64,000 bases of DNA from Paludibacter sp. (GTDB lineage: Bacteria > Bacteroidota > Bacteroidia > Bacteroidales > Paludibacteraceae). A program made the position numbers and the translations under genes. Below the pieces are notes generated by a model that saw nothing but the letters and a program-made list of their open reading frames with translations, ran no database searches and was not told where the DNA came from. The stretch lies in assembly GCA_028692715.1 (NCBI GenBank), contig JAQUWU010000010.1, positions 1 through 64,000 of the forward strand, written 5' to 3'. Each line of letters begins with the position of its first letter. Positions within the stretch are counted from its first letter, which is position 1. This document shows, piece after piece, positions 365 through 63,322 of this stretch.

Positions 365-390
365 CCCCCGACCCCTAAAGGGGAGGACGG
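365..390. repeat. Dispersed CCCCTAAAGGGG repeat, copy 1
   Basis: The core ACCCCTAAAGGGGA is preceded by the usual GACCCCC-type arm. It lies directly upstream of the 58-aa gene's start codon, so it would be in that mRNA's leader. Confidence 0.8.
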
Positions 391-454
391 ATTTTTTTGA
401 ATGTTTACTGAAATTTATTAAAAACGAAATATCTATAAAAATGTATTATTTTAT

Positions 455-473
455 CCCCCTTTAGGGGTTAGGG
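455..473. repeat. Dispersed CCCCTTTAGGGG repeat, copy 2
   Basis: CCCCCTTTAGGGGTTAGGG lies two bases from the tyrA stop codon, in opposite orientation to copy 1. Copies 1 and 2 bracket the tyrA to wHTH intergenic segment as an inverted pair. Confidence 0.8.
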
Positions 474-474
474 A

Positions 475-1248
475 TCATTCTATATTCTTTCTTACTTGTT
501 TCAAAAATCCCTGCATTCGTTCTGAATCTTTAGTGTCAATAATTTCCAAGAGAGTTTTTAATTCTGCACGAATTTTTTCCACCTGATTGTGGGTGTGTGG
601 ATTGAATAGTATTTCCGAAAGTAAATAATCATCTTCGGCCAATAATCCTTTGGCAATATCCATGTGACGTTTAAAAGTTGTACCGGGTGCTTCCTGAGGT
701 ACCATTACTGATGCAAAAACTAAAGTAGAAGCAAAAGGAATGGATAGCGAATAAGCAATAGTTTTATCATGTTCATCAAAACTGTATTCAAAAATATTGA
801 GTTTAAGGGAGCCATATAAATCTTTGAAAAATGCTTTGCCCATATGATCCGATTCGGAAATAATAATGGCACTTTGCGTACTCAGATTATCGAGTGTAGC
901 AAAGGTTGGTCCAAACATAGGGTGAGTGGATACATATCGCATACCTGTACTTTTATAATAATCCTGAATGCCTGTTTTTACTGATGCGATATCAGAAATA
1001 ATACAGTTTTTTGGCAAATAAGGAATTATCGTTTTAAACGCATCAATGGTAAATTTGAGCGTAACGCAGTTTATAACCAACTCCGGTTCAAATGCCCGTA
1101 CTTCTTCGTAATTTGTCATACGAAGGGTGTTGAATACAAATCGCAAACGCTTTGGATCGGTATCGAAAAGTGCAACTTCGTGCTGTATGCACAACACATC
1201 GGTAAGAAATGTGCCCATCTTTCCGGCACCAAGAACAAGAATTTTCAT
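475..1248 (-). CDS. tyrA: Prephenate dehydrogenase
   Basis: Oxidatively decarboxylates prephenate to 4-hydroxyphenylpyruvate with NAD(P)+, the committed step of tyrosine synthesis in the cytoplasm. The 257-aa protein opens with the Rossmann motif GAGKMG (residues 7-12). SDIASVK (85-91) and STHPMFGP (107-114), which contains the catalytic His of the family, follow, with an all-helical C-terminal part. There is no chorismate mutase or ACT domain, as is usual for the short Bacteroidetes form. It is the fourth gene of a minus-strand run (DUF4922, SpoIID, MFS, tyrA). Dispersed repeats sit immediately upstream and downstream. The start is the only ATG before the GAGKMG motif. Confidence 0.9.
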   Translation of the reverse strand: MKILVLGAGKMGTFLTDVLCIQHEVALFDTDPKRLRFVFNTLRMTNYEEVRAFEPELVINCVTLKFTIDAFKTIIPYLPKNCIISDIASVKTGIQDYYKSTGMRYVSTHPMFGPTFATLDNLSTQSAIIISESDHMGKAFFKDLYGSLKLNIFEYSFDEHDKTIAYSLSIPFASTLVFASVMVPQEAPGTTFKRHMDIAKGLLAEDDYLLSEILFNPHTHNQVEKIRAELKTLLEIIDTKDSERMQGFLKQVRKNIE

Positions 1249-1255
1249 ATAAAAT

Positions 1256-1278
1256 GACCCCTAACCCCTAAAGGGGAA
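1256..1278. repeat. Dispersed CCCCTAAAGGGG repeat, copy 3
   Basis: GACCCCTAACCCCTAAAGG is visible a few bases upstream of the tyrA start codon (minus strand), so it forms part of the likely ribosome-binding region. Confidence 0.8.
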
Positions 1279-1360
1279 TTTCAGGATAGTTTGATTTATT
1301 AATAATTTGCAAAGGTAGTTATTTGAAACGATTTCTTTTTGTTTTATAATACAAAATTCT

Positions 1361-1393
1361 CCTTTAGGGTTTACCTAACTTTAGGTAGGGTTA
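1361..1393. repeat. Degenerate dispersed repeat at the 3' end of the MFS gene
   Basis: CCTTTAGGG, TTTACCTAA and CTTTAGGTAGGGTTAGG look like two overlapping decayed copies. The last codons and stop of the MFS transporter (C-terminus TPNPT) are read from this sequence. Confidence 0.55.
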
Positions 1394-2709
1394 GGCGTCT
1401 TCTTCTTTCCGAACTCCCGATCTATCTTCAAAAACGGAATAATTGCCAAGGTTGGAATTGTACAAAGCATGATAATTATGAAAAATGTTTGATATCCAAC
1501 TGTTTCTTGTAACCATCCGGCAATCATGCCGGGGAACATCATGCCCATTGCCATAAATCCTGTACAAAATGCATAATGAGCCGTTTTATGTTCTCCTTCA
1601 GAAATATAAATCATATATAGCATATAAGCGGCAAATCCAAAACCGTAACCAAATTGCTCAATAGCTACCATAATATTAATGGTTATCAGACTTACCGGCT
1701 GGTATACTGACATAATAACATAAACTATATTTGGTAGTGTAATACTCAATGCCATAGGGAAAATCCAAAACTTTAATCCGCCTTTCGATGCGGCAATTCC
1801 ACCAAGAATTCCACCCAAAACGAGAAATATTATCCCTATTGTTCCATACGTTATCCCTACTGCTTCGGTGCTTAATCCTAATCCACCAAGTTCTCTTCCA
1901 TCTAATAAAAAAGGAGATGCAATTTTCACCAACATAGCTTCACCCAAACGGTAAAGAAGAAAAAATGCAAGTGCTAATCCTATATTTTTCTTTTTGAAAA
2001 AGCTTACAAATGTGGTGACAAATTCTTTAAAAATTTTTGATGAATTTGTATTTTGTAATGTTTTGTCAGAATCAGGTTTTGGTAATGCAAACCTGTGATA
2101 TATAAACAGAAGTAGAAATACTCCGGCCATTACAAAAAATGTTATGCTCCATGAAAGCTTTATATTTCCGGTAGTCCTTTCCAAATAACCAGCAAGGATG
2201 ATTAAAAGACCCTGAGCCGAAATCATTGCTAATCGGTAAAAGGTACTTCGGATACCAACAAAAAAAGATTGTTGCGCCGAATCCAATGCCAACATATAAA
2301 ATCCATCGGCAGCAATATCATGTGTGGCGGAACTAAATGCCAGTAGCCAGAAAACGGCTAAAGTTCCCTGAAAAAAAAACGGCATTGGAATTAAAAATGC
2401 AACGCCTGCTAGTCCTGCTCCTATCAACAATTGCATGGATACAATCCACCAGCGTTTAGTTTTCATTAAATCTACAAACGGACTCCAAAACGGTTTTATC
2501 ATCCATGGAAGATATAACCAGCTGGTGTAAAGGGCAATATCAGTATTCGAAATGCCCAGTCTTTTGTACATAATCACCGAAACTGTCATTGCTACTACAT
2601 ACGGAAGCCCTTCCGCAAAATACAATGTTGGAATCCATGTCCAGGGAGATTTACTCCTAACCCCTAAAGGGGAATTGAAGTTGCTTATATCTTTATTTTT
2701 CAAGGCCAT
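1381..2709 (-). CDS. AmpG-like MFS transporter
   Basis: A 442-aa polytopic membrane protein of the major facilitator superfamily, with about 12 hydrophobic segments. The N-terminal FAEGLPYVVAMTVSVIMYKR is characteristic of the AmpG branch, which moves GlcNAc-anhydroMurNAc muropeptides across the inner membrane. In Bacteroidetes the same family may carry other sugars, so the substrate is inferred. Support comes from the neighbours: a SpoIID/LytB protein just upstream, and MurQ and a sugar kinase elsewhere in the window. Residues 11-20 include NSPLGVRSK, translated from a dispersed repeat (2654-2674), and the C-terminal TPNPT also comes from a decayed copy. Both ends of the protein therefore seem to have been rewritten by repeats without breaking the frame. 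Confidence 0.8.
   Translation of the reverse strand: MALKNKDISNFNSPLGVRSKSPWTWIPTLYFAEGLPYVVAMTVSVIMYKRLGISNTDIALYTSWLYLPWMIKPFWSPFVDLMKTKRWWIVSMQLLIGAGLAGVAFLIPMPFFFQGTLAVFWLLAFSSATHDIAADGFYMLALDSAQQSFFVGIRSTFYRLAMISAQGLLIILAGYLERTTGNIKLSWSITFFVMAGVFLLLFIYHRFALPKPDSDKTLQNTNSSKIFKEFVTTFVSFFKKKNIGLALAFFLLYRLGEAMLVKIASPFLLDGRELGGLGLSTEAVGITYGTIGIIFLVLGGILGGIAASKGGLKFWIFPMALSITLPNIVYVIMSVYQPVSLITINIMVAIEQFGYGFGFAAYMLYMIYISEGEHKTAHYAFCTGFMAMGMMFPGMIAGWLQETVGYQTFFIIIMLCTIPTLAIIPFLKIDREFGKKKTPNPT
2654..2674. repeat. Dispersed repeat inside the MFS transporter N-terminus
   Basis: CTCCTAACCCCTAAAGGGGA lies within codons 11-18 of the MFS gene and is read on the minus strand as NSPLGVR. Confidence 0.85.
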
Positions 2710-2751
2710 ATTATGTGTCGTATTTAATATTTATATGCAATATCTCCGTTC

Positions 2752-2774
2752 TCCCCTTTAGGGGTTGGGGGTTC
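2752..2774. repeat. Dispersed CCCCTTTAGGGG repeat, between SpoIID and MFS genes
   Basis: CTCCCCTTTAGGGGTTGGGG fills most of the 72-bp gap between the SpoIID stop and the MFS start. Confidence 0.8.
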
Positions 2775-2781
2775 TTTGGTC

Positions 2782-4125: not shown

Positions 4126-4131
4126 TTTTTT

Positions 4132-5040
4132 TCAACCAACCTGATGTAAAATGCTTAAAATATCTTCTTTTGAAATTTTGTCAAAATGACTTTCTATGGG
4201 AGTGATAAAAACCCCACACATTTCTACTGTAGCGGGACTCACGAGCAATTGATCGTCTCCTTCAGCAGTATATTGCCATGGACGAAACGCTTTTCGGGGA
4301 AGAATAAACGTAAACCATTTGTTGCTTTCATAACTACAAACCACATTCATTAGGGGCTCAGTTCCCCTCTCCCCGGGGAGAGGGGTTAGGGGTGAGGTGA
4401 TGTGTTTAACTATTTTCTCAAACCCATCTTTCGCACTTTCAATATCTGCCGACTCAATACAATATACCGTTCGAAGATAATTTTTCATTTGAAAGAGTTG
4501 CATTTTCTCAGTAGTCACTAGTAAATCGGTGTGAGAATCTTTCAGTCTGAAATAATCATTCACCAAGGGCAAAAAATCTTTCGTTCCGGCCTGAAAATGC
4601 ATATGATCGGGAGCAGAAGCTCCACATTGCGGCCCGTTATAAAACACCAAATAATTGCTCAATTCTTTTGATAAATGGAGCATGTCGCTAAAAAACGGTT
4701 TTATTTGTTGTGGAATATGTTCGTTGCGTGGAATGGTGAAATGTTCAGGGAAAATGGGAAAGGGGTTTACTAATATAGTATAATCACCTATCTCAATACC
4801 TTTTTGTTCGGCAGGCAAATTTTCCGGACATAAAAAACATTTACGTTCCGAAATGCTTTTTGCATCAACTTTTGCACCTGACGAAACAATTCGGGCGGGA
4901 TTAAACTGCACTTTTACTTTAAAATCACCAAAATCAATAGATTTTGTTCGAACTAATTTTAAGCCTTCATAATTTTTACGAGCCAGTTCCCAGTTTGTAA
5001 GTTGCTCATGGAATAATTCCAGTACTTTATTGTTTGTCAA
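4132..5040 (-). CDS. DUF4922 HIT-like protein (nucleotidyltransferase/phosphorylase-like)
   Basis: A 302-aa cytoplasmic protein with the HIT-like histidine motif HMHFQ (146-150) after FYNGPQCGASAPD, and a CFLC cysteine pair (68-71). It resembles the DUF4922 family and, more distantly, GDP-hexose or Ap4A phosphorylases. The exact substrate is unknown. No ATG is available: the frame upstream is open only to a TAA 60 bp away, so a TTG start at 5040 is the best choice and is uncertain. Residues 215-231 (HITSPLTPLPGERGTEP) are encoded by a dispersed repeat of the CCCCTCTCC...GGAGAGGGG subtype. It is the first gene of the run that continues into SpoIID, MFS and tyrA. Confidence 0.75.
   Translation of the reverse strand: MTNNKVLELFHEQLTNWELARKNYEGLKLVRTKSIDFGDFKVKVQFNPARIVSSGAKVDAKSISERKCFLCPENLPAEQKGIEIGDYTILVNPFPIFPEHFTIPRNEHIPQQIKPFFSDMLHLSKELSNYLVFYNGPQCGASAPDHMHFQAGTKDFLPLVNDYFRLKDSHTDLLVTTEKMQLFQMKNYLRTVYCIESADIESAKDGFEKIVKHITSPLTPLPGERGTEPLMNVVCSYESNKWFTFILPRKAFRPWQYTAEGDDQLLVSPATVEMCGVFITPIESHFDKISKEDILSILHQVG
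4356..4397. repeat. Dispersed repeat (CTCTCC..GGAGAG subtype) inside DUF4922 gene
   Basis: CCCCTCTCCCCGGGGAGAGG with the flank GGTTAGGGGTGAGG forms a near-perfect hairpin within codons 215-231 of the DUF4922 gene. It is a longer-stem relative of the CCCCTAAAGGGG type. Confidence 0.85.
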
Positions 5041-11212: not shown

Positions 11213-11500
11213 GTTAAAAATGCTGAGTTCTGCTCTTTTTCGGAGTGGACTCAAGTATAGATTTTTATATTATCACACCCCGTTAGTTGTCCGGATATCA
11301 GACTTAACATTTGATTCTAACATGTTAGATAACGTACTTTTTTATTGCCTTCGGACTTTTCAGAGATAGTATACAGGACTCTACCGGGGAATAAATATGT
11401 AAGTTGTGTGAAGATATATTTGTCTTGATTCATAGAATTTGTCTTTATGTAAAGCTAAAAACTGTGTTTTCATTTCAAATCGTCATGTTATAATAATATA

Positions 11501-20943: not shown

Positions 20944-22332
20944 ATGCAACGAGTTATTTCAATATTAACTATATTTCTTACGCTGTTTTTGTTTAGCTTC
21001 TGCGATTCCACAGTTGAACCCGATGACACGTATCCTCCTACGGTTATGTTGACATTTCCAGTAAACGATGCAGTAGATGTCAATATAAATATTGATAGTA
21101 TTGCAATACAATTTACCGAAAAAATACAAATGGCTTCAAATAATAAAATTAACTTGAATGGTTTGTCAGTTAATGCGATCGTAGCTGGTAGAAAACTTGT
21201 CATTAAAAATAATGGACTAGAAGCTAGCACAACATATACATTGATTATTCCCGCTAAAACGATAAGCGATGCAGTCGGAAACTTTGCCACCGAAATTGAA
21301 ATTTCATTCACTACCATAGAAGCTCAAGAACCTGTTACTATCTCTCCGAATCTGGTGACAAACAATCCCTCTGCGCAAGCAGTAAAACTATATAATTTTC
21401 TGAAAGAAAACTATGGAGTGAAAATTATTTCATCCACCATGGCCAATGTAAACTGGAACATCAATGAGGCTGAATGGGTAAAACTACATACAGGTAAATA
21501 CCCTGCAATGGCTACGTTTGATTATATTCATCTGATGTCATCGCCAGCGAGCTGGATCGATTATTCAAATACCAGTGTTGTTGAAGATTGGTGGAACAAC
21601 AATGGAATTGTCAGTGCATGCTGGCACTGGAATGTACCGGTATCTCAAGGTTCATTGACCTTTACATACAAACCGGAAGAAACTACTTTCAATCCTTCTA
21701 ATGCCACCATAGAAGGCACATGGGAAAACGATGTGGTAAAAGCTGATTTAGCTAAAATAGCCGTCTATCTTAAATTATTACAAGAGAAAAACATCCCTGT
21801 TATATGGCGTCCTCTACATGAAGCCGCCGGAAATACTTATGAATACAGTGGTGGTAAAGCCTGGTTCTGGTGGGGCTCAGGCGGTGCTTCAGCCTTTAAA
21901 AATCTCTGGAAGTATATGTTCGATTATTTTAATGCTCAGGGGCTGAATAATCTGATATGGGTCTGGACAACACAAACCAAAGATAACGCTTATTATCCCG
22001 GCGATAATTATGTTGATATTGTGGGACGCGATATTTACAATAAAGCCAGTGTCTCAGCTATAGCAAGTGAGTTTAACTCCATCCAACAAACATATCCAAC
22101 AAAAATGGTTACGTTGAGCGAATTTGGAAATGTTGCTAAAATATCGGAACAATGGATCGGTGGAGCAAAATGGTCGTATTTCATGCCGTGGTATGATTAT
22201 AACCGTACCAATAGCATGACCGACTCTGATTTTAGCAGTACAGAACATGAACATGCCAACGCAGCATGGTGGAATGATGCCGTTAATGCGGCTTCAGTCA
22301 TTACCCGTGATAAAATGCCAAGTTTGAAATAA
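20944..22332 (+). CDS. GH26 endo-beta-mannanase lipoprotein with Ig-like domain
   Basis: A 462-aa protein cutting internal beta-1,4-mannosidic bonds. Lipidation is expected at Cys20 (LTLFLFSFC). Residues about 30-125 form a Big_5-type Ig-like domain (PPTVMLTFPVNDAVDVN ... FATEIEISFTT). Residues 135-460 form the GH26 (beta/alpha)8 barrel with the acid/base Glu293 in WRPLHEAAG and the nucleophile Glu393 in LSEFG. The lipid anchor and domain plan suit a cell-surface enzyme that produces oligosaccharides for SusC/D. It follows the terminator at 20805 and begins the enzyme cassette. Confidence 0.92.
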   Translation: MQRVISILTIFLTLFLFSFCDSTVEPDDTYPPTVMLTFPVNDAVDVNINIDSIAIQFTEKIQMASNNKINLNGLSVNAIVAGRKLVIKNNGLEASTTYTLIIPAKTISDAVGNFATEIEISFTTIEAQEPVTISPNLVTNNPSAQAVKLYNFLKENYGVKIISSTMANVNWNINEAEWVKLHTGKYPAMATFDYIHLMSSPASWIDYSNTSVVEDWWNNNGIVSACWHWNVPVSQGSLTFTYKPEETTFNPSNATIEGTWENDVVKADLAKIAVYLKLLQEKNIPVIWRPLHEAAGNTYEYSGGKAWFWWGSGGASAFKNLWKYMFDYFNAQGLNNLIWVWTTQTKDNAYYPGDNYVDIVGRDIYNKASVSAIASEFNSIQQTYPTKMVTLSEFGNVAKISEQWIGGAKWSYFMPWYDYNRTNSMTDSDFSSTEHEHANAAWWNDAVNAASVITRDKMPSLK

Positions 22333-22354
22333 CCCCCGACCCTTAAAGGGTAGA
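22332..22354. repeat. Dispersed repeat after the GH26 mannanase
   Basis: ACCCCCGACCCTTAAAGGGT directly follows the GH26 stop codon. The core is slightly shortened (CCCTTAAAGGG, a perfect palindrome). Confidence 0.75.
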
Positions 22355-22386: not shown

Positions 22387-23871
22387 ATGAAACATTTCTC
22401 ATTAAAAAGTATAAAGTGTAGTGCTAACTTTTGTTCCCCTTTAGGGGTTAGGGAGAATATTGTTCCCCTTCGTGGGCTAGGGGTTCTTCTTCTATTATTT
22501 TGCTTTCTGGCTTTGAATGCATCAGCCCAATGGGCTTTTCGGTTGCCGGCTATTATTAGTAATCATGCTGTTTTACAACAATCAGCCGATGTTAAACTAT
22601 GGGGCTGGGCTCAAAGTGGAAGTACTGTAAAAATAAGCTGCAGTTGGAATCCTACTGATACTGTAAAAGCCGAACCCCGTAAAGACTGGACATGGGATGC
22701 TATGATAAAAACACCTAAAGCAGGTGGTCCATACACAATTACGTTTATAAGCAGTACGCAAAAAGTTGTAATAAACGATATCTTAATTGGCGAAGTATGG
22801 CTTTGTTCAGGACAATCAAATATGGAATATGCTTTCAATTGGGAACAAGGAGTGCTCGATGCTGGTGACGAGGTGGCAAATTCAGCTAATAACGAATTGC
22901 GCTTTTTCCAGCTTTCTCACAAATACAGCAATTTCCCTGTCGAAAACTCTGACGGGGAGTGGAAAATCAGTTCCCCGGAAACCACTCCTTCGATGAGCGT
23001 TGCCGGATATTTCTTTGGAAAAAAATTAAATCAGACACTTAAAGTGCCTGTCGGTCTGATTGCTTCCTATTGGGGAGGTACAAGCGTACAAAACTGGACT
23101 CCTTCGATAGTTTACCAAAAAGATCCGGAATTGAAAAAAGATGCCGATAATCTGTCTCCTGTGAACTGGGCACCGATGGCACCTTCGGTACTTTATAATT
23201 CGATGATTTATCCGTTGATCAATTATCGCATTGCCGGAACAATATGGTATCAGGGAGAAAGTAATACCGAACATCCGGAAGTGTACGGGAAGTTGTTTGA
23301 GGCTTTGATTACTGGTTGGAGACAGGTCTTCAAAAATGACTTTCCTTTCTACTTTGTACAAATTGCGCCATGGAACGGTTACTCGGGGACTAGTGCGGCA
23401 TTGCTTCGCGAACAACAGGAATATGCTTTAAAATTACCAAAAACCGGAATGGTTGTGGTTGGTGATTTAGTAGACGATATAACCAACATTCATCCGAAAA
23501 TAAAGAAAGAAGTAGGAATGCGATTGGCAAATCTGGCTTTGAAAGAACAATATGGAATTAGCAATTTACAACCATATTTTCCTCATTTTTTTAATTTTAC
23601 AATAAAGAAGAACAAAGCAAATATAACTGTTACTTCATTAGGAAAATTGAGTTGTAAAGACAAAACAATAAACAGCTTCCAGATTGCAGGAGCTGACAAA
23701 GTTTTTTATCCTGCAACTGCAGTTATTGAAAAAAACGGGTCTATAACTTTGACAAGTAAATTAGTAAAATCGCCTGTGGCGATCCGTTATTGTTTTACGA
23801 ATGATGGAATGCCTAATCTTTTCGATGTTAATGGATTACCTTTAGTTCCCTTCCGTACTGACAAGTGGTAA
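22387..23871 (+). CDS. SASA-family (sialate O-acetylesterase-like) mannan acetylesterase
   Basis: A 494-aa GDSL/SGNH-type carbohydrate acetylesterase. Motifs are WLCSGQSNMEY (nucleophile Ser144), IWYQGESNTEHP, and the C-terminal DDITNIHP carrying the Asp and His. In a mannan locus the likely role is removal of acetyl groups from mannan. The signal peptide is odd: after the only in-frame ATG, residues 17-33 (SPLGVRENIVPLRGLGV) are translated from two dispersed repeats. They supply the positive charges in front of the hydrophobic LLLLFCFLALNASA; cleavage is likely before Gln48. GH26 starts 3 bp after the stop. Confidence 0.85.
   Translation: MKHFSLKSIKCSANFCSPLGVRENIVPLRGLGVLLLLFCFLALNASAQWAFRLPAIISNHAVLQQSADVKLWGWAQSGSTVKISCSWNPTDTVKAEPRKDWTWDAMIKTPKAGGPYTITFISSTQKVVINDILIGEVWLCSGQSNMEYAFNWEQGVLDAGDEVANSANNELRFFQLSHKYSNFPVENSDGEWKISSPETTPSMSVAGYFFGKKLNQTLKVPVGLIASYWGGTSVQNWTPSIVYQKDPELKKDADNLSPVNWAPMAPSVLYNSMIYPLINYRIAGTIWYQGESNTEHPEVYGKLFEALITGWRQVFKNDFPFYFVQIAPWNGYSGTSAALLREQQEYALKLPKTGMVVVGDLVDDITNIHPKIKKEVGMRLANLALKEQYGISNLQPYFPHFFNFTIKKNKANITVTSLGKLSCKDKTINSFQIAGADKVFYPATAVIEKNGSITLTSKLVKSPVAIRYCFTNDGMPNLFDVNGLPLVPFRTDKW
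22435..22486. repeat. Two dispersed repeats inside the acetylesterase signal peptide
   Basis: CCCCTTTAGGGGTTAGGG at 22436-22453 and the degenerate CCCCTTCGTGGGCTAGGGG at 22465-22483 lie in the same orientation. Both are in frame and encode SPLGVR and PLRGLGV. Confidence 0.85.
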
Positions 23872-27280: not shown

Positions 27281-27305
27281 TGACCCCTAACCCCTAAAGG
27301 GGAAC
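27281..27305. repeat. Dispersed CCCCTAAAGGGG repeat between GH3 and GH5-GH26
   Basis: TGACCCCTAACCCCTAAAGG is visible 3 bp after the GH3 stop, in opposite orientation to the two copies inside the next gene. It forms an inverted pair with them across about 80 bp. Confidence 0.85.
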
Positions 27306-27343: not shown

Positions 27344-29755
27344 ATGGATATTAAAAAATATATATTAGACAAGATAAACTTATTTTCCCCTTTAGGGGTT
27401 AGGGGTTCAGTTCCCTTTCATGGGTTAGGGGTTCTTTTTTTACTCTTAATTACTATGAGTTGCTTTGCAAATACCACCAAACGTTTTGCCCATGTGAAAG
27501 ATAAACATTTTGTTGCTGATGACAAACCCTATTATTTTATCGGAACCAATTTCTGGTATGGCACTATTTTGGGTTCTACAGGTGAAGGAGGTAACAGGGA
27601 TCGCTTGATTCGGGAACTGGATTTCATGAGAGCAAACGGAATCAACAATTTACGTGTACTAATTGGTGCTGATGGCGAAAACGGTGTTGCGTCAAAAGTA
27701 GAACCGACATTGCAAATTAAACCGGGGGTATACAATGATACTATTTTCGACGGACTTGATTTTCTGTTATCGGAAATGGGAAAACGCGATATGAAAGCGG
27801 TGCTGTTTTTCACCAATTCGTGGGAATGGTCGGGCGGTTACAGTCAATACCTCAACTGGGCCGGCAAAGGTAAAAATCCAATTCCATCCGTAGATGGTTG
27901 GCCGGCTTACATGGATTACGTAAAACAATATGCCGGTTGTGACGAATGTCGTCAAATGCTGAAAAACCATATCAAACATGTTGTTTCACGCACCAACCGT
28001 TACACAAATAAAAAATACACCGACGATCCTGCCATATTTTCGTGGCAAATTGGAAATGAGCCACGAGCTTTTTCTGATGAAAACAAACCATTGTTTGCTG
28101 CATGGTTGAAAGATATTTCTGCTTATATCAAATCATTGGATAAAAACCACATGGTCAGCATTGGTTCTGAAGGACAATGGGGTTGTGAAATGGATATGAA
28201 TTTATTTGAGCAAATTAATGCCGATCCGAATATTGATTATCTGACCATGCATATCTGGCCTAAAAACTGGAGTTGGTTGGATGTAAAAAATATGTCAGGA
28301 ACTTTACAAAACAGCATAGATAAAACAGCTGAATACATGAACAATCACATGGCTGTTGCCCGCAAATTATCCAAGCCTATTGTGTTGGAAGAATTCGGAT
28401 TTCCACGCGATCATCATCAATATACGCTGACCGATTCAACCGCTTTACGTGATAAATACTACAGTGCGGCATTTGAAAAAACACTGAAATCGTCGAAGGA
28501 AAAAGATGTGTTGGCCGGTTGTAATTTTTGGGCTTGGGGTGGATTTGGACGTCCAAGCGGAAACCCTGTTTTTTGGGAAAAGGGAGACGATTACCTCGGC
28601 GATCCTGCACAGGAAGAACAAGGATTGAATTCGGTTTTCGATACGGATGCTACTGTGAAAATAATAAAGAATTATTCGGACAGAATCAATGGAAAAGTGA
28701 CACTGGTAGATGAAAATGCCACAGCCAAAACCCGGGCGCTTTTTGTGAACATGAAAAATAATCTCGATAAAGGCATTATGATTGCTCATCAGGACGATGC
28801 AGCTTACGGTCACGACTGGTATAATGTTGAAGGACGTTCCGATGTAAAAGAAACGGCCGGCAATTATCCGGCTGTGTTTGGTTGGGAATTGGGTCATATT
28901 GAAATTGGTGCTGAATATAACCTTGATTCTGTTTATTTTAGCAATATGAAACGTTTGATTCGCAAAGTGTACGAACGTGGAGGAATTAATACCATCAGTT
29001 GGCACGGCGATAACATTGCTACAGGAAAAACAGCCTGGGATTGCGCACAAGATACAGTGGTGAAAAGTATTTTACCCGGAGGAAGCAATCATTCTAAGTT
29101 CCTCGTTTATCTTGACAGGTTAGCTGCCTTTTTCCACGATTTGAAAGATAAAAACAGTGAACCGATTCCTGTCATTTTCCGCATGTTTCACGAACATACC
29201 GGCAGTTGGTTTTGGTGGGGAGCCAAACAATGTACGCCTGACGAATATAACGAGCTATACCGCATGACTGTAAAATATCTCCGTGATACCAAACAGATTC
29301 ATAACCTACTATATGCTTTTTCACCTGCCGATGTGGCTACCGAACAAGAATATATTGAACGTTATCCCGGTGACGAGTGGGTGGATATTGTTGGTTTCGA
29401 TACCTATGCTTATGGTACGGAAGCCAAAGATATTGATCTTTATAAACAGAAGATGACTGTCGGTTTGTCCATCGTTACAAAATATGCAACTCAAACAAGT
29501 AAAATTCCAATTATGGCCGAAACAGGTATGGAAGGTATCAAAGTGACCGATTATTTTACAAAGGTTTTATTGCCAATAATTCAGTCTTACAAAATAAGTT
29601 ATGTGCTTTTCTGGCGCAATGCGTTCAACAACCCGAACCATTTTTATGTGCCCTATGTGGGTCATGCGTCGGCTGCTGACTTTAAAAAACTTACAGAAAC
29701 ACCGGGCATTCTTTTAAATAAAGAAATCTCGTCTATGTATAGCTCTGAGCAATAA
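27344..29755 (+). CDS. GH5-GH26 two-domain beta-mannanase
   Basis: An 803-aa fusion of two mannan-cutting catalytic modules. The GH5 part (about 48-445, closest to GH5_7 mannanases) has acid/base Glu239 (IGNEPRAF) and nucleophile Glu350 (LEEFGFPRD). The GH26 part (about 450-800) has Glu617 (FRMFHEHTGSWFWWG) and Glu726 (MAETGMEG). Both catalytic pairs are intact. The N-terminal signal region includes residues 15-30 (SPLGVRGSVPFHGLGV) encoded by two dispersed repeats just before the hydrophobic LFLLLITMSC. Cys40 may be lipidated, although the lipobox is imperfect. The pairing of the two families suggests synergy on one chain. Confidence 0.9.
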   Translation: MDIKKYILDKINLFSPLGVRGSVPFHGLGVLFLLLITMSCFANTTKRFAHVKDKHFVADDKPYYFIGTNFWYGTILGSTGEGGNRDRLIRELDFMRANGINNLRVLIGADGENGVASKVEPTLQIKPGVYNDTIFDGLDFLLSEMGKRDMKAVLFFTNSWEWSGGYSQYLNWAGKGKNPIPSVDGWPAYMDYVKQYAGCDECRQMLKNHIKHVVSRTNRYTNKKYTDDPAIFSWQIGNEPRAFSDENKPLFAAWLKDISAYIKSLDKNHMVSIGSEGQWGCEMDMNLFEQINADPNIDYLTMHIWPKNWSWLDVKNMSGTLQNSIDKTAEYMNNHMAVARKLSKPIVLEEFGFPRDHHQYTLTDSTALRDKYYSAAFEKTLKSSKEKDVLAGCNFWAWGGFGRPSGNPVFWEKGDDYLGDPAQEEQGLNSVFDTDATVKIIKNYSDRINGKVTLVDENATAKTRALFVNMKNNLDKGIMIAHQDDAAYGHDWYNVEGRSDVKETAGNYPAVFGWELGHIEIGAEYNLDSVYFSNMKRLIRKVYERGGINTISWHGDNIATGKTAWDCAQDTVVKSILPGGSNHSKFLVYLDRLAAFFHDLKDKNSEPIPVIFRMFHEHTGSWFWWGAKQCTPDEYNELYRMTVKYLRDTKQIHNLLYAFSPADVATEQEYIERYPGDEWVDIVGFDTYAYGTEAKDIDLYKQKMTVGLSIVTKYATQTSKIPIMAETGMEGIKVTDYFTKVLLPIIQSYKISYVLFWRNAFNNPNHFYVPYVGHASAADFKKLTETPGILLNKEISSMYSSEQ
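27385..27434. repeat. Two dispersed repeats inside the GH5-GH26 signal peptide
   Basis: CCCCTTTAGGGGTTAGGGG at 27387-27405 and the degenerate CCCTTTCATGGGTTAGGGG at 27413-27431 lie in the same orientation and frame as the pair in the acetylesterase gene. Confidence 0.85.
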
Positions 29756-46961: not shown

Positions 46962-46996
46962 AAAATTCCGGGTAGATGAGAGTTTTGAATTGTAAT
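46962..46996 (+). pseudogene. 3'-end relic of an MBL-fold hydrolase gene
   Basis: The segment AAATTCCGGGTAGATGAGAG through TTTTGAATTGTAA encodes KFRVDESFEL-stop, exactly the last ten residues of the MBL gene at 10385-11212, with only two base differences over about 34 bp. It has no upstream coding sequence and abuts the stop codon of the ABC ATPase. It looks like the remnant of a second copy or of a rearrangement. Confidence 0.65.
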
Positions 46997-50041: not shown

Positions 50042-50095
50042 AATATTTTAATTGATAATTTATAATTCCCAATTGATAATTGACATTCTTTATCG

Positions 50096-53140: not shown

Positions 53141-53176
53141 TTTACCCCTAACTCACTCTCCTTTGGAGAGGGCTGG
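53141..53176. repeat. Dispersed repeat (CTCTCC..GGAGAG subtype)
   Basis: ACCCCTAACTCACTCTCCTT followed by TGGAGAGGGCTGGGGTGAGG belongs to the longer-stem subtype also found in the DUF4922 gene and at 59879. Confidence 0.7.
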
Positions 53177-53187
53177 GGTGAGGTCTA

Positions 53188-55683: not shown

Positions 55684-55704
55684 CTCTTAACCCTAAAAGG
55701 GAAT
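55684..55704. repeat. Dispersed repeat (decayed) between TetR and TolC
   Basis: CTCTTAACCCTAAAAGGGAA, a copy with shortened C and G runs, six bases after the TetR stop. It is followed by AAATTCTAAATTCTAAATTA, a short tandem array. Confidence 0.65.
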
Positions 55705-55746
55705 ATATTGATAAATTCTAAATTCTAAATTATATATTATACAAAT

Positions 55747-57080: not shown

Positions 57081-58013
57081 ATGAAAACAAAAAATAAAAC
57101 CCTCCGTAAAATGAATCTCTTTGGAATAAAAGTTGGATTATTCAGCTTAGCTCTTTCTACCTTATTTGTGTCGTGTGGCAAATCGGATGGCGATTATGAT
57201 GCATCTGGTACTTTTGAAGCCACTGAAGTTATTGTCTCAGCTGAAAGTATGGGTAAAATTTTGCAGTTTGACATTACTGAAGGTCAGCAGTTAACTCAAA
57301 ATCAGTCGGTAGGAATTATTGACAGCACCCAACTGTATTTGAAAAAGCAACAATTACTCGCCAGTCAAAAAGCCATGTTGACTCGTCGTCCGGATTTGAA
57401 CAAACAAATTGCCGCTTTGGAACAACAAGTTGCTACTGCCAAAACAGAAAAAAAACGCATCCAAAATTTGGTGAATGCCAATGCAGCCAATCAGAAACAA
57501 CTCGACGATGTGAATGCACAAATTGCAGTCCTAGAGAAACAGCTTATTGCTCAAAAATCAAACATAGATAGTGCAAATGAAGGCATCAGCGAAGACAATA
57601 AATCGGTAAATATACAGATTGCACAAATTGAAGATCAGCTTGTAAAAGCAAAAATTACCAGTCCAATTACAGGTACGGTTCTTACCAAATATGCCGAGAC
57701 AGGTGAATTGGCAGTGGCTGGAAAAGCTCTTTTTAAAATTGCCGATATCAATAATATGATTTTACGTGCATATATCACGAATAGTCAGTTGACACAAATC
57801 AAAATTGGTCAAAAAGTAAAAGTTTTTGCTGACTCTGGTGAAGATCAAAAAGAATACGCAGGTACAATTGAATGGATTTCCGATAAATCGGAATTTACAC
57901 CTAAAACCATTGCCACTAAAGATGAAAGGGCCAATATGGTTTATGCTTTAAAAATCAGTGTAAAAAATGATGGTTTTCTTAAAATTGGAATGTACGGGGA
58001 TATAAAGTTGTAA
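57081..58013 (+). CDS. HlyD-family periplasmic adaptor, lipoprotein
   Basis: A 310-aa membrane-fusion protein. The signal ends LSTLFVSC with Cys32 as probable lipid anchor. A biotinyl-lipoyl-like strand set (FEATEVIVSAESMGKILQFDITEGQQL) precedes a long coiled-coil hairpin (about 90-190, LASQKAM ... IQIAQIEDQL). The second lipoyl half (ITSPITGTVLTKYAETGELAVAGKALFKIAD) and a beta-barrel domain follow. It resembles the YbhG type that works with two ATPases and two ABC-2 permeases, exactly the genes that follow. Confidence 0.9.
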   Translation: MKTKNKTLRKMNLFGIKVGLFSLALSTLFVSCGKSDGDYDASGTFEATEVIVSAESMGKILQFDITEGQQLTQNQSVGIIDSTQLYLKKQQLLASQKAMLTRRPDLNKQIAALEQQVATAKTEKKRIQNLVNANAANQKQLDDVNAQIAVLEKQLIAQKSNIDSANEGISEDNKSVNIQIAQIEDQLVKAKITSPITGTVLTKYAETGELAVAGKALFKIADINNMILRAYITNSQLTQIKIGQKVKVFADSGEDQKEYAGTIEWISDKSEFTPKTIATKDERANMVYALKISVKNDGFLKIGMYGDIKL

Positions 58014-58014: not shown

Positions 58015-58044
58015 ACCCCTAACCCCTAACCCCTAAAGGGGAAC
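58015..58044. repeat. Dispersed repeat with duplicated arm, between HlyD and ABC genes
   Basis: Three tandem CCCCTAA units precede the AAAGGGG half; the flank CCCCTAACCCCTAACCCCT shows expansion of the arm. Confidence 0.8.
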
Positions 58045-58081: not shown

Positions 58082-59056
58082 ATGAATGCAATTGAAGTAA
58101 AAAATATATCAAAAAATTATTTTTCCAAAAAGTCCGGAAAATTTGCCGGAGTTGGGAAGTTACCAACTTTAGGAGACGACAGTAACTCAGTCCCCCTTCA
58201 GGGGTTAGGGGTCACATTCAATGTCAACAAAGGTGAGATTTTTGGACTAATTGGTCCTGATGGAGCAGGTAAAACTACAATCTTCCGAATATTAACTACT
58301 TTGATTTTGGCAGATAGCGGAACAGCAACTGTTGTTGGTTTTGATGTGGTAAAGGACTACAAAGAAATCAGGAAAACAGTGGGTTATATGCCGGGACGCT
58401 TTTCGTTGTATCAGGATTTGACAGTGGAAGAAAATTTGAACTTTTTTGCAACGGTTTTCAATACCACTGTGGAAGAAAATTACGAATTGATAAAAGATAT
58501 TTATGTTCAGATAGAGCCATTTAAAAAGCGGAGAGCCGGCAAACTTTCGGGCGGCATGAAACAAAAATTGGCACTCAGCTGTGCATTAATTCATAAGCCC
58601 AGTGTGCTGTTTTTAGATGAACCTACTACGGGTGTTGACCCGGTATCGCGCAAAGAATTTTGGGGCATGCTAAAACATCTTAGAGATCAAGGTATTACCA
58701 TTGTTGTTTCAACACCTTATATGGATGAAGCCAGTTTGTGCGACCGCATTGCATTGATACAAAAAGGTGAGTTCCTGAAAATTGACACTCCTGCCAATAT
58801 TATTAAACAATATAATAACAAGTTGCTCTCTGTGAAAAGCGATAATATGGCATTACTATTAAAAGATTTACGTTCAAACAAAGCAACTAGCAATTGCTTT
58901 GCATTTGGCGACAAACACCATGTTTCTGTTGATAATGAACAATTTAAAACTGAAAGTTTAGAACTATTTCTGAGAGAAAAAGGACATTCAAATATTGAGG
59001 TAACAGAGATAGAACCTACTGTGGAAGATTGTTTTATGGAACTTAGTCAGATTTAA
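58082..59056 (+). CDS. ABC transporter ATP-binding protein 1, repeat-altered N-terminus
   Basis: A 324-aa ATPase of the YbhF-like drug/ABC-2 type. Walker A GPDGAGKTT (58-66), signature KLSGGMKQKLALSCAL, Walker B LFLDEPTTGVDP and a C-terminal extension are present. Between the opening IEVKNISKNY (4-13) and VTFNVNKGEIFG (44-55) relatives have about a dozen residues. Here there are about 30, ending in SVPLQGLGV, translated from a dispersed repeat at 58191-58213. The strand that normally carries the A-loop aromatic may be disturbed. The second ATPase begins 5 bp after the stop. Confidence 0.88.
   Translation: MNAIEVKNISKNYFSKKSGKFAGVGKLPTLGDDSNSVPLQGLGVTFNVNKGEIFGLIGPDGAGKTTIFRILTTLILADSGTATVVGFDVVKDYKEIRKTVGYMPGRFSLYQDLTVEENLNFFATVFNTTVEENYELIKDIYVQIEPFKKRRAGKLSGGMKQKLALSCALIHKPSVLFLDEPTTGVDPVSRKEFWGMLKHLRDQGITIVVSTPYMDEASLCDRIALIQKGEFLKIDTPANIIKQYNNKLLSVKSDNMALLLKDLRSNKATSNCFAFGDKHHVSVDNEQFKTESLELFLREKGHSNIEVTEIEPTVEDCFMELSQI
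58191..58213. repeat. Dispersed repeat inside ABC ATPase 1
   Basis: TCCCCCTTCAGGGGTTAGGG in frame, giving PLQGLGV, the same peptide type as in the acetylesterase and GH5-GH26 signal peptides. Confidence 0.85.
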
Positions 59057-59862: not shown

Positions 59863-59878
59863 TATTACTACTAATTAA

Positions 59879-59926
59879 CACCTCACCCCTCACCCCTCTC
59901 CTTGAGGAGAGGGGAATTGGAGAGGA
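59879..59926. repeat. Dispersed repeat (CTCTCC..GGAGAG subtype) between ATPase 2 and permease 1
   Basis: CACCTCACCCCTCACCCCTC then TCCTTGAGGAGAGGGGAATT form a stem like those at 4356 and 53141. Confidence 0.75.
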
Positions 59927-59992
59927 AAATATTAATTGGGTTATCATTCTCACAACTTATCTTTTTTATTTATTAGTACTAACTTATCTTAT

Positions 59993-60011
59993 TCCCCTTT
60001 AGGGGTTAGGA
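59993..60011. repeat. Dispersed repeat abutting permease 1 start
   Basis: TCCCCTTTAGGGGTTAGGA ends 6 bp before the ATG at 60017. A longer reading (YSPLGVRSH) is open but starts at an ATG that would give a non-family N-terminus. Confidence 0.75.
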
Positions 60012-60016
60012 GCCAT

Positions 60017-61123
60017 ATGAAGCAACTATTATCATTTATACGTAAAGAGTTTTATCATATTTTGCGCGACAGAACAACCATGATGATTTTACTCTTGATG
60101 CCTGTAATTCAATTATTATTATTTGGATTTGCACTCACAACAGAAGTAAAAAACACGGAAGTGGCTGTTCTTGCGCCTACAAACGATGAAGCAAGCAGCC
60201 GAATTATTCAGAAAATTAATGCCAGTGCATATTTCGATGTAGTAACACAAATTAAAAATGCCGACGAGATTGAAGCCACATTCAGAGATTCAAAAGCAAA
60301 ATTAATTGTCGTTTTCGAAGAAGATTTTGCAGCAAAATTATATCAAACAGGTAAAGCACATATCCAACTTATTGCCGATGCCACTGATCCAAATGCTGCT
60401 ACATCCTTCACTTTTTATGCCAGCAATATCATTAATGCCTATCAAAAAGAATTGATAGATGACACAAAAAACCCTTACCAAATTACGTCTGAAGTAAAAA
60501 TGCTTTACAATCCACAAATGATTGGGGCTTACAGTTTTGTGCCTGGTGTCTTGGGTATGATTATGATTCTTATTTGTGCAATGATGACTTCCATAGCCAT
60601 TGTACGCGAAAAAGAAATGGGAACTATGGAGATACTTCTGGTATCGCCCATGAAACCTATTTATACCATTTTATCAAAAATAACGCCCTATTTTGTATTG
60701 TCGTTTGTAAACTTTATAACAACTTTATTGCTTTCCGTTTACGTTTTACATGTTCCTGTTGTTGGCAGTTTGATAAGTTTGACTTTTGTTTCGTTGTTAT
60801 ATATATTTTTATCCTTGGCCTTGGGATTATTAGTGTCAACATTAACCAGTTCGCAAACAGCTGCTATGCTTATTTCAGGGATGGCATTAATGATACCGGT
60901 TATGTTATTGTCAGGCATGATGTTTCCTATTGAAGGAATGCCTTTACCACTACAATGGTTTTCAAATATTATTCCGGCTAAATGGTATATAATAGCCGTA
61001 AAAGCAATTATGATTCAAGGACTTGGCATAGGTTCGGTACTAAAAGAAGTAGGGATTCTCATTCTTATGAGTGTTGTCTTGGTAGCCATAAGTTTAAAAA
61101 ATTTCAAAGTAAGACTTGAATAG
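60017..61123 (+). CDS. ABC-2 type permease 1
   Basis: A 368-aa inner-membrane protein of the YbhS/YbhR type. The start at 60017 (MKQLLSFIRKEFYHILRDRTTMM) matches the family; an ATG at 59936 would add 27 residues partly coded by a dispersed repeat. A first membrane span (about 23-45) precedes a large periplasmic domain (about 46-170, VAVLAPTNDEASSRIIQKI). Five more spans follow at the C-terminus, with EKEMGTMEILLVSPMKP and MLLSGMMFPIEGMPLPLQWFSNIIPAKWYI. It pairs with the next gene to form the membrane pore. Confidence 0.9.
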   Translation: MKQLLSFIRKEFYHILRDRTTMMILLLMPVIQLLLFGFALTTEVKNTEVAVLAPTNDEASSRIIQKINASAYFDVVTQIKNADEIEATFRDSKAKLIVVFEEDFAAKLYQTGKAHIQLIADATDPNAATSFTFYASNIINAYQKELIDDTKNPYQITSEVKMLYNPQMIGAYSFVPGVLGMIMILICAMMTSIAIVREKEMGTMEILLVSPMKPIYTILSKITPYFVLSFVNFITTLLLSVYVLHVPVVGSLISLTFVSLLYIFLSLALGLLVSTLTSSQTAAMLISGMALMIPVMLLSGMMFPIEGMPLPLQWFSNIIPAKWYIIAVKAIMIQGLGIGSVLKEVGILILMSVVLVAISLKNFKVRLE

Positions 61124-61130
61124 TGGACAA

Positions 61131-61160
61131 TTGATAGTTGATAGTTGATAGTTGATAGTT
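61131..61160. repeat. Tandem TTGATAG array between the two permeases
   Basis: Four TTGATAG units in a row fill most of the 59-bp gap. This is the same unit as in the SpoIID insertion and at the end of ATPase 2. Confidence 0.85.
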
Positions 61161-61182
61161 AAAGATTAAATAAGATATTGAG

Positions 61183-62295
61183 ATGATAAAATATTTATTA
61201 AGAAAAGAATTCAAACAGTTATTAAGGAATCCATTCATTCCACGGATGATTATCATGTTTCCTTTTATGGTTCTATTGGTTTTTCCATGGGCTGCTAGCT
61301 ACGAAATTAAAAACCTCAATTTAAGTGTTGTGGATAATGACCATAGCACTTATTCGCAACAATTAATTCAAAAAATAACTGCTTCGAATTATTTCAATCT
61401 CACCAATGTATCGGAAAATTATGAGCAAGCCATGGTGAGTATTGAAAAGCAACAATCGGATATTATTTTGGTAATACCGCCTCATTTCGAAAAAAACATT
61501 GTAAATCGTCAGGGAGGAAAAGTGATGATTTCGGCTAATGCTGTAAATGGCATGAAAGGAAGTATCGGAATGACTTATTTGAATAGTATTATTGGCAGTT
61601 TCAATCTGCAAATTATTGATGAGCTTATGCCTTCATCGAGTTCTGCTTCAGTTGCAAGCATAGAAATTGATCCTCAATACCGCTTCAATCGCGACTTAAA
61701 CTATCAGGTCTTTATGGTTCCGGCATTAATGGTGATGATATTGACTTTGCTTTGTGGATTTTTACCTGCATTCTCCATCGTTTTTGAAAAAGAATTAGGC
61801 ACAATGGAGCAAATCAATGTGAGTCCTGTTCCAAAAATCACCTTTATTTTGGCAAAATTGATTCCTTTCTGGATCATTGGTTTTGTTGTAATTACTATCG
61901 GATTCTTTGTGGCTTGGGCAGTTTATGGTTTAGTGCCGGCAGGTCATTTTTCAACAATCTATTTATTTGCGGCCATTTATATCTTTGCACTTTCAGGTCT
62001 AGGAATCATTGTTTCAAACTATGCAGCAACATTGCAACAAGCCATGTTTCTCATATTTTTCTTTATGCTTCTTTTTATCATGTTAAGTGGTTTATATACG
62101 CCCATCGACAGCATGCCCGAGTGGGCAAAATGGGTCGCTGCTTTCAATCCTTTGAAACATTTTATGTATGTAATGCGGTCGGTATATCTGAAAGGCAGTA
62201 ATCCTTTGCAGCTAATGCCGGAATTATTGGCATTGATTGGCTTTGCTGTTTTCTTTAATGTTTGGGCAGTATTGAGTTATCACAAAAAGAATTAG
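61183..62295 (+). CDS. ABC-2 type permease 2
   Basis: A 370-aa inner-membrane protein paralogous to permease 1: KYLLRKEFKQLLRNPFIPRMIIMFPFMVLLVFP, periplasmic domain with VVDNDHSTYSQQLIQKITAS, then EKELGTMEQINVSPVPK and IMLSGLYTPIDSMPEWAKWVAAFNPLKHF. It completes the exporter with TolC, HlyD and two ATPases. Its stop overlaps the stop of the convergent murQ by a few bases. Confidence 0.9.
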   Translation: MIKYLLRKEFKQLLRNPFIPRMIIMFPFMVLLVFPWAASYEIKNLNLSVVDNDHSTYSQQLIQKITASNYFNLTNVSENYEQAMVSIEKQQSDIILVIPPHFEKNIVNRQGGKVMISANAVNGMKGSIGMTYLNSIIGSFNLQIIDELMPSSSSASVASIEIDPQYRFNRDLNYQVFMVPALMVMILTLLCGFLPAFSIVFEKELGTMEQINVSPVPKITFILAKLIPFWIIGFVVITIGFFVAWAVYGLVPAGHFSTIYLFAAIYIFALSGLGIIVSNYAATLQQAMFLIFFFMLLFIMLSGLYTPIDSMPEWAKWVAAFNPLKHFMYVMRSVYLKGSNPLQLMPELLALIGFAVFFNVWAVLSYHKKN

Positions 62296-63116
62296 TCCGT
62301 TTTTTGAGTATGAACAAAATCTAACGTTTTTTTTACTGAGCCATGAATTAGTAGTAGATTTTTGGCCTGATCGTAATTTAAACCCAATTCATCAACTAGC
62401 ATTCTTGTTCCACGGTCAATTAATTTGGAATTGTTTAATTGCATGTTCACCATTTTATTTCCTTTCACCCTGCCAAGTTTTATCATGGTTGTGGTTGTAA
62501 TCATGTTCAACACAAGTTTTTGTGCTGTTCCTGATTTTAGACGGGTGCTTCCTGTAACAAATTCCGGTCCTACAATCACTTCAATAGGAATGTCGGCTTC
62601 TTCAGAAACAGGAGAATCCGGGTTGCAGGAAATGGATGCAGTAAGAATTTTATTTTTTCGTGCATTTCTCAATCCGCCAATTACATAAGGTGTAGTTCCT
62701 GATGCTGCTATGCCAATTACTGTATCTGTATTGTTTATTTGCAGTGCCTGAAGTTCTTCCCATGCTTTTTCTATATCATCTTCAGCATTCTCTACCGCAT
62801 TTGTCAATGCACTTTCTCCACCTGCAATTAACCCGATGACCCATCCCGATGGGATGCCAAAAGTAGGTGGAATTTCAGAAGCATCAAGCACACCTAGTCG
62901 ACCGCTAGTCCCTGCTCCAATATAAAAAATACGTCCACCACGCTTCATCCGTTCCACAATTTTTGTCACCAATGCTTCAATTTGAGGAATTATTTTTTCA
63001 ACCGCCAATGCTACTTTTTTGTCCTCTTCGTTAATCCCTGACAGAAGTTGAGCAACCGATTTTTTATCAAGGTCACTATATATGGAGGTCTGTTCCGTAA
63101 TTTTCTGAAATGCCAT
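62292..63116 (-). CDS. murQ: N-acetylmuramic acid 6-phosphate etherase
   Basis: Cleaves the lactyl ether of MurNAc-6-phosphate to give GlcNAc-6-phosphate and D-lactate in cell-wall recycling. The 274-aa SIS-fold protein carries IFYIGAGTSGRLGVLDASEIPPTFG, GGESALTNAVENAEDD, GIAASGTTPYVIGGL and TGSTRLKSGTAQKLVLNM, all canonical. A BadF-type sugar kinase follows upstream in the same direction, as in MurK-MurQ pairs of Bacteroidetes. It overlaps the stop of the convergent permease gene. Confidence 0.95.
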   Translation of the reverse strand: MAFQKITEQTSIYSDLDKKSVAQLLSGINEEDKKVALAVEKIIPQIEALVTKIVERMKRGGRIFYIGAGTSGRLGVLDASEIPPTFGIPSGWVIGLIAGGESALTNAVENAEDDIEKAWEELQALQINNTDTVIGIAASGTTPYVIGGLRNARKNKILTASISCNPDSPVSEEADIPIEVIVGPEFVTGSTRLKSGTAQKLVLNMITTTTMIKLGRVKGNKMVNMQLNNSKLIDRGTRMLVDELGLNYDQAKNLLLIHGSVKKTLDFVHTQKTD

Positions 63117-63295
63117 GATCCTAAAGTAAAATATAAATTGTTAATTATAAATTATAAATTGTATGGTGACTACTCAGCACTTCAAAAAGTACTTCATTTG
63201 ACGTTTTTAGAGAAATTGTAGAGTAAAAAAAATATAATTTTCACAAAAAAAATAGCCAAATTAAAGTGACTAAATGATGAATGTCGCTACAGAAC

Positions 63296-63322
63296 TCCCC
63301 CTTTAGGGGGTTGGGGGGCTGA
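63296..63322. repeat. Dispersed repeat between murQ and the sugar kinase
   Basis: CTCCCCCTTTAGGGGGTTGG with an extended G arm, lying 5 bp beyond the kinase stop codon. Confidence 0.8.

Follow-up and report, generated by a model that had tools for sequence, protein, structure and literature searches.

The window analysed here is a stretch of 64,000 nucleotides from Paludibacter sp. (assembly GCA_028692715.1, contig JAQUWU010000010.1, positions 1 to 64,000 of the forward strand), in which a short G-rich palindromic unit recurs at the edges of genes and within them. Our reading, to which we give a probability of roughly two in three, is that a small mobile element has these palindromes as its ends; its full form would enclose a gene for a DUF559 nuclease, and the copies in the window would be nuclease-less relatives of it, present as pairs or as single units.

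The G-rich units of the window

An initial annotation of the sequence had counted about 20 copies in two subtypes, and this count stands: a unit or a remnant can be read at 20 of the 20 places it named (the weak ones by eye). The CCCCTAAAGGGG core occurs 12 times in the window (11 exact and one with one mismatch) against 0.08 expected, and none of 100 shuffles reached 12. Subtype 2, CCCCTCTCC, has 4 exact matches against 0.10 expected, with two arms at 4364-4385 and 59893-59914. A unit consists of a C-run, a loop and a G-run, followed by a second G-run mirroring the first, and in each direction it has one open frame, encoding a Pro/Gly-rich linker (SPLGVRG, KSPKGDLGG).

At the left of the window, a pair found in the core search has its left member at 363..384 (+) and its right member at 452..477 (-). 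Another unit (1256..1277, +) lies just upstream of the predicted start of open reading frame (ORF) 475-1248(-), and a decayed one, recognized by eye, spans 1355..1400 (-). The left member of a second pair (2652..2673, +) stands in frame at the predicted N-terminus of an MFS transporter, ORF 1381-2709(-), where it reads NSPLGVRS; its right member is at 2749..2774 (-). A subtype-2 unit of the triplex-motif form (4351..4398, -) is in frame in a DUF4922 protein, ORF 4132-5040(-), and reads TSPLTPLPGERGTEP. ORF 20944-22332 has an imperfect unit at its stop (22331..22352, +), and two further units are in frame in the SASA esterase of ORF 22387-23871, one in its signal-peptide-like N-terminus (22432..22457, -; SPLGVRE) and a second, imperfect one (22461..22486, -; VPLRGLGV). 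Directly after the stop of ORF 25008-27278 comes a unit at 27282..27303 (+), and the GH26 protein of ORF 27344-29755 again has one in a signal-peptide-like N-terminus (27383..27408, -; SPLGVRG) and an imperfect second one in frame (27409..27434, -; VPFHGLGV). The initial annotation's repeat-free interval of 28-53 kb was borne out, with no unit in 27435-53140 by exact or one-mismatch core search and a hairpin scan.

The next unit, subtype-2-like, is at the 3' end of ORF 53188-54744(-) (53141..53185, -). Within the efflux operon (55-62.3 kb), a weak unit follows the stop of the TetR gene 55055-55678 (55684..55706, +), one with a doubled tail follows that of the HlyD gene 57081-58013 (58015..58043, +), and one is in frame near the N-terminus of the ABC ATPase of ORF 58082-59056 (58189..58214, -; SVPLQGLGV). 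Between genes E and F of this operon lies a further pair, with a subtype-2 unit on the left (59879..59926, +) and a right member immediately upstream of the ATG at 60017 (59990..60015, -). The last unit (63294..63319, -) marks the right-hand end of a distinct element, about 163 bp long. Those at 1361, 22332, 22465, 27413, 53141 and 55684 are the weak or imperfect ones.

The suggestion that units sit in short gaps next to stop or start codons thus holds for some of them, but seven are in frame inside five predicted ORFs (1381-2709(-), 4132-5040(-), 22387-23871, 27344-29755 and 58082-59056). In three of these (1381, 22387 and 27344) the units fall in the first 40 or so codons, where the start codon is only predicted.

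Copy number and spread among relatives

The whole genome (4.85 Mb, 122 contigs) has 114 forward and 106 reverse exact CCCCTAAAGGGG cores, 220 in all, against 1 + 0 for a reversed control pattern; the REP-like nature that the initial annotation had raised as one possibility is supported, the repeat being high in copy number and mobile-looking. Both orientations occur, as it had said, with close copies ordered: among the first 100 of the 220 places there are 27 neighbour pairs at most 250 bp apart, of which 23 run + then -, two ++, two -- and none - then +. Members of the + then - pairs are 52 to 147 bp apart. Among 39 units of this genome, the DNA on the tail side is covered by an open frame of 90 codons or more in 36, and that on the hairpin side in 22. 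A longer inner motif, GTTACT, hinted at by a few relatives, was dropped, being present in 3 of these 39 units.

Within the genus, 39 of 47 other genomes have the exact core, in 4 to 282 copies, and eight lack it; outside the genus it was found in 13 of 52 genomes of the order. In four genomes of other families of the order (G096, G069, G099 and G072), close core pairs recur at spacings of 24, 38 and 40-45 bp, in contrast to the variable spacing in the genus.

Presence and absence at orthologous sites

The E/F junction of the efflux operon could be read in 18 relatives. Five have a 5-base gap, one a 35-base gap and three a G-rich pair like that of the window, while nine (seven by script, two by eye) have a gene for an S23-like four-helix bundle between AT-rich repeats. 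The states of this gap differ among relatives, and therefore the pair together with its interior is the variable part there. The C/D junction of relative L050 is occupied by a DUF559-like gene flanked left and right by units, and the same relative has a unit elsewhere in the ABC ATPase gene that corresponds to ORF 58082-59056. In the DUF4922 gene, where 14 of 30 loci could be anchored (the window's included), a unit is found at the window's spot in L375, L376, L378 and L397, a decayed one in L374 and perhaps L383, and none in seven others. Units are thus present in some relatives and absent from others, both at operon junctions and inside genes.

DUF559 genes often lie between hairpins

DUF559 (PF04480) was detected in 37 of the 48 genomes of the genus. 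Ninety of the 99 matches listed were taken; 89 gave 91 domains (one had no domain by the seeds used), and 83 of these had enough flank. A domain was counted as bracketed when a hairpin of the form CCCC..GGGG lay within 250 bp on each side, which was the case for 57 of the 83: 29 of 39 domains in frame within a larger protein (seven with a hairpin on one side, three with none) and 28 of 44 stand-alone domains (12 one side, four none). This is well over the controls, as genes of the operon were bracketed in 3 of 126 cases (24 one-sided) and random places in 4 of 2000 (175 one-sided). A looser hairpin rule gave 54 of 83, made up of 29 in-frame domains with both sides (the other 10 of the 39 with one) and 25 of the 44 stand-alone domains (13 with one, six with none), against 0 of 25 S23 genes, 3 of 126 operon genes and 3 of 600 random places. 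AT-rich repeats of the S23 type flanked none of the 83 domains on both sides and one on one side. Where typed units occurred on both sides within 500 bp of a stand-alone domain (26 loci), the outermost ones had a + unit at left and a - unit at right in 16 cases, the remainder being mixed or untyped by our own count. Over the 48 genomes, DUF559 counts and repeat counts correlate with a Spearman coefficient of 0.65.

A second sample came from named genomes, mostly Bacteroidota (80 loci, 71 with enough flank, three shared with the genus sample). Here 48 of 71 loci had hairpins on both sides, 14 on one and nine on none, whereas of 452 control places within these loci one had both and 43 had one. 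The inverted-repeat score between upstream and downstream flanks exceeded, in 32 of 74, the 99% level set by pairing flanks across loci. Further afield, hairpins on both sides were recognized by eye in Patescibacteria (1 of 1), Magasanikbacteria (2 of 5) and Chloroflexi (1 of 2), and on one side in Xenococcus. Ten of 38 DUF559 records were taken from a plasmid collection; six of these loci (Sphingomonas, Pseudanabaena, Picosynechococcus, two Deinococcus and S. meliloti) scored 6 to 92 points over the best of six controls of their own. One further set of genomes (the phylum of the metagenome-assembled genome G102; DUF559 in 109 of 198), with 14 of 26 loci over the 99% level of 76 controls and hairpins on both sides in 6 of 26 loci against 0 of 76, was not used as evidence for another phylum. 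Literature searches limited to open-licence PMC articles listed no paper that ties DUF559 to repeats.

DUF559 domains within conserved proteins

In five proteins submitted to Pfam, DUF559 stands beside the domains of a class I tRNA synthetase (IleS by our reading), FGAR-AT/PurL, UvrA, LeuS (the editing domain) and MetH. ValS, RecG, PriA and restriction and methylase proteins appear to be further hosts, judging from their sequences. An intein or an intron was considered as the explanation of these insertions and rejected: Pfam gave no intein domain in the five proteins, and Rfam no match, and no intron, at 12 DUF559 loci.

A comparison site by site is offered by ileS, for which 47 of 48 genomes yielded a single match each, free of internal stop codons. 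At site S1, readable in 45 genomes, 33 have no insert, one (G020) has a single unit, eight have nuclease-less pairs, some of them decayed, and three have full inserts; the genome of the window is among the eight. Site S2 (43 genomes) has no insert in 37, right-end remnants in two and full inserts in four, and site S3 (41 genomes) no insert in 34 and units in seven. The inserts replace a few native residues, and conserved genes are occupied in frame in some species and uninterrupted in others. The pair and full states at S1 are of different subtypes. The ileS gene of one genome (G023; L071, L152) accommodates two in-frame DUF559 inserts as well as an additional in-frame unit.

Fold and descent of the nuclease

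A profile of 16 DUF559 domains matches the PDB entries 3hrl (2.3e-31) and 3r3p (3.7e-7), and a predicted model of the domain (pLDDT 84) aligns in Foldseek with 3hrl and with the catalytic domain of I-Bth0305I at a TM-score of about 0.7. To judge from these matches, DUF559 is a nuclease related to the homing endonuclease I-Bth0305I. The active-site residues E13, D42, E53, D55 and H59 are nearly invariant, each being conserved in no fewer than 81 of 83 in-frame domains and 121 of 123 stand-alone ones. The ratio of nonsynonymous to synonymous polymorphism (pN/pS) is 0.19 to 0.38 in in-frame domains and 0.08 to 0.14 in the adjoining host codons, with synonymous sites near saturation.

Nucleases at the same host site cluster together while their carriers are scattered. 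In the domain tree (fasttree) nine host-site groups, the stand-alone domains counting as one, need 17 changes against a shuffled mean of 55.9, with none of 200 shuffles as low, and the PurL domains form one clade with a support of 99. On an IleS tree of 42 genomes the carriers need nearly as many changes as there are carriers: seven for seven carriers at PurL, four for four at LeuS, seven for nine at MetH and three for three at ValS. The PurL inserts of genomes G017 and G023 differ by 0.092 and their hosts by 0.185, and the LeuS inserts of G017 and G022 by 0.102 with hosts at 0.202; two insert pairs about half as diverged as their hosts point to transfer.

Triplex-motif layout and Escherichia coli

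Among 617 units with informative arms (from the window, L070-L340 and L401-L410, many of them near copies), the run after the hairpin agrees with a mirrored G-arm in 282, with an unmirrored one in 141 and with a shuffled arm in 114 (at a fit of at least 0.85). A mirrored third G-run is the layout of an intrastrand triplex motif (TM). Such motifs were described in E. coli as TM_ECO, formerly PIT (Holder et al. 2015, PMC4666352). Parts of that paper report the class from more than 260 genomes at sites that vary between strains, tie the motifs to local instability in E. coli, give 23 copies for E. coli K-12 in a table, and describe the copies in strain MG1655 as always intergenic, with no mobile gene found around them. 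The units here share with TM_ECO the hairpin with its mirrored third G-run and the inverted pairs; they differ in bracketing DUF559, in occurring inside genes and, for subtype 1, in being shorter. The strict TM_ECO consensus has no match in the window, while a relaxed motif fits subtype 2, with two matches at 4364 and 59881.

E. coli MG1655 also has an annotated DUF559 gene, ycjD, and TM copy 9 lies 167 bp from it, on one side only (L411, 1348000-1352000). With 18 sites, one would come this close by chance with a probability of about 0.3%, a figure computed post hoc. Of 5426 E. coli genomes, 3364 cover 80% or more of the ycjD region. In three genomes without ycjD that were examined, an efflux operon stands beside sapF, and because of this they do not represent a simple empty site.

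Other repeats

AT-rich repeats of the TTGATAGTTGACAGTTGA type are present in the window at 3601-3634, 50055-50088 and 61120-61167. At the E/F junction of L051, L055-L058, L061-L063 and L068, the S23-like gene (PF05635) stands between inverted runs of this type, and at some other S23 loci runs of the GTTACAAGTTACGAG type take their place. PF05635 is found in 45 of the 48 genomes of the genus, and the S23 gene with its AT-rich repeats is possibly a second repeat-bracketed gene system. Its inverted-repeat score over 25 loci has a median of 18 against a null median of 9, but the null reaches higher because the S23 loci share the same repeats, which makes the comparison uninformative. The element of about 163 bp (window positions ~63166-63328) has the ends GTGACTACTCAGC and GCTGAGTAGTTAC and terminates in a G-rich unit; another copy is in L004, and partial or variant copies are in L014 and L020. 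Two 39-bp copies at 11178-11216 and 46961-46999, 92% alike, are unrelated to the G-rich unit.

Proposed mechanism and competing explanations

In the model that we favour, a complete element has G-rich units at its two ends, paired in inverted orientation with tails pointing outward and hairpins inward, and between them the gene of an EDxHD (Vsr-type) nuclease, DUF559. The open Pro/Gly-linker frame of the unit would allow it to sit within a protein without splicing. The nuclease would cut uninserted alleles, and repair of the break would copy the element in, as in homing, with the G-rich ends recognized either by the nuclease or by the repair process. Rarer insertion elsewhere might then yield the dispersed nuclease-less copies, which would be moved in trans. 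The evidence suggests an overlooked type of mobile element, with DUF559 often in frame inside essential proteins such as tRNA synthetases.

A number of results weigh against this reading. We observed no movement, and movement by the nuclease is what we infer from the distribution. Among its weakest points is the absence of the matching nuclease: the group associated with the CCCCTAAAGGGG subtype, found elsewhere in 10 genomes (the L050 gene left out), has no member among the DUF559 domains examined in the genome of the window. Equally awkward are the pair interiors, which are not conserved (4 of 45 comparisons among 10 pairs over the 99% shuffle level), and target duplication, of which none was visible by eye in the same number of pairs; because of these two results, units at many loci may have arrived separately. 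Hairpins are missing on one or both sides of 26 of 83 genus and 23 of 71 named DUF559 domains, and four of the 10 plasmid-collection loci have no clear paired repeat, with an excess over their own controls of 1 point in N. gonorrhoeae and none in E. coli, Azospirillum and Sinorhizobium K101. The correlation between DUF559 and repeat counts takes no account of genome size, completeness or relatedness; DUF559 went undetected in 2 of 29 genomes with at least 20 core copies and is present in 3 of 8 that lack the CCCCTAAAGGGG core. Conservation of the E.DG..H residues is biased in loci L160-L239, because these were picked by a motif containing them. The domain tree is built on few columns and includes near-copies, and the host tree is that of IleS alone, weakly resolved. 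Finally, insert and host distances at LeuS show a correlation of 0.92, as under vertical descent, and at MetH the divergence of the inserts (0.344) exceeds that of their hosts (0.195), which they do not track.

The most serious rival, which we consider improbable, is that other machinery spreads the G-rich units and that DUF559 is a homing nuclease targeting existing units, and hence found between them. This would account for the large excess of nuclease-less copies over DUF559 genes, for a genome full of units with no matching nuclease group among the domains examined, and for the different subtypes of the pair and full states at IleS S1. It sits less well with the occurrence of units and DUF559 at the same host sites with matching ends, and two other gene families are unbracketed (S23, 0 of 25; Y1_Tnp, 0 of 7).

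It is more doubtful still that the units are not mobile at all but unstable G-rich structures, arising and kept at gene edges by replication slippage and repair, with DUF559 a Vsr-like repair enzyme. The link between triplex motifs and local instability drawn in parts of PMC4666352 favours such a view, as does the TM copy beside ycjD, but some species have complete nuclease genes, both ends included, within IleS, PurL, LeuS and MetH, and others do not.

Mobilization by a RAYT (REP-associated tyrosine transposase, Y1 family), as the initial annotation had proposed for a repetitive extragenic palindromic (REP) element, now seems very improbable. The units are indeed short palindromes in inverted pairs and high copy, and the genome has seven Y1_Tnp matches. 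None of these has hairpins on both sides within 250 bp and one has a hairpin on one side; at one Y1_Tnp locus (L037) there is an exact unit about 190 bp upstream of the ORF. A GTAG or CTAC tag is near 12 of 41 units, about the estimated chance level. With neither bracketing nor an excess of tags in its own genome, a RAYT was rejected as the mover, relatives not having been searched for one; the initial interpretation is thus supported in part. A role in RNA only, as terminator or mRNA stabilizer, agrees with the gene-edge position and with tails towards coding DNA, but it too is very unlikely, given that in-frame copies are translated, that the Rfam search of the window returned no match and that it leaves the DUF559 bracketing unexplained.

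REPINs are REP-type repeats of REP/RAYT systems, often in inverted pairs. The element proposed here resembles REP/RAYT systems (REPtrons) and the TIRYT systems (TIRtrons) as described in parts of PMC3733652, in which a repeat-flanked enzyme gene coexists with repeats dispersed without the enzyme, often as inverted pairs, but what it encodes is a nuclease of the EDxHD type rather than a Y1 HUH transposase. In the relevant sections of PMC3733652 and PMC10969869, Rickettsia palindromic elements and intragenic CGTC/GTAG REPs are palindromes that likewise stand in frame in conserved genes, either singly or as pairs, and lengthen the protein by tens of residues. Of 41 units here, 2 have the CGTC tag and 12 the GTAG tag; according to those sections the CGTC class seems to have no transposase of its own, and they report no nuclease gene within such repeats. 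With EDxHD homing endonucleases such as I-Bth0305I (parts of PMC3943268; PDB 3r3p) the element shares a related catalytic fold and patchy insertion into conserved genes. Unlike that type, it has no intron or intein that we could find, is translated within its host and is bracketed by repeats that have many nuclease-less copies. Of the traits of homing endonucleases it has family membership and same-site clades with patchy carriers (the LeuS distances looking vertical), and it lacks the self-splicing intron or intein that is usual around such nucleases, though not required for free-standing ones. Of those of miniature inverted-repeat transposable elements (MITEs) it has the terminal inverted repeats and lacks an interior shared among copies.

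Significance

A wider proposal, which we put forward tentatively and at somewhat less than even odds, is that G-rich hairpin (triplex-motif) repeats, common across many bacterial phyla, represent the termini and defunct relatives of a single class of DUF559-driven element, which would enter conserved genes in frame and be kept, without splicing, as a translated extra domain with Pro/Gly linkers. If this is true, it would supply the enzyme that the orphan TM/PIT repeats have lacked, also in E. coli. Triplex-motif repeats have so far been described, in the parts of PMC4666352 that bear on this, without a link to a mobile gene, and pairing them with a homing-endonuclease-like protein would give a testable mechanism. 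E. coli K-12 has both parts, ycjD and TM copies, so it could be tested there. A nuclease gene living in conserved single-copy proteins without splicing would also bear on how proteins gain inserted domains.

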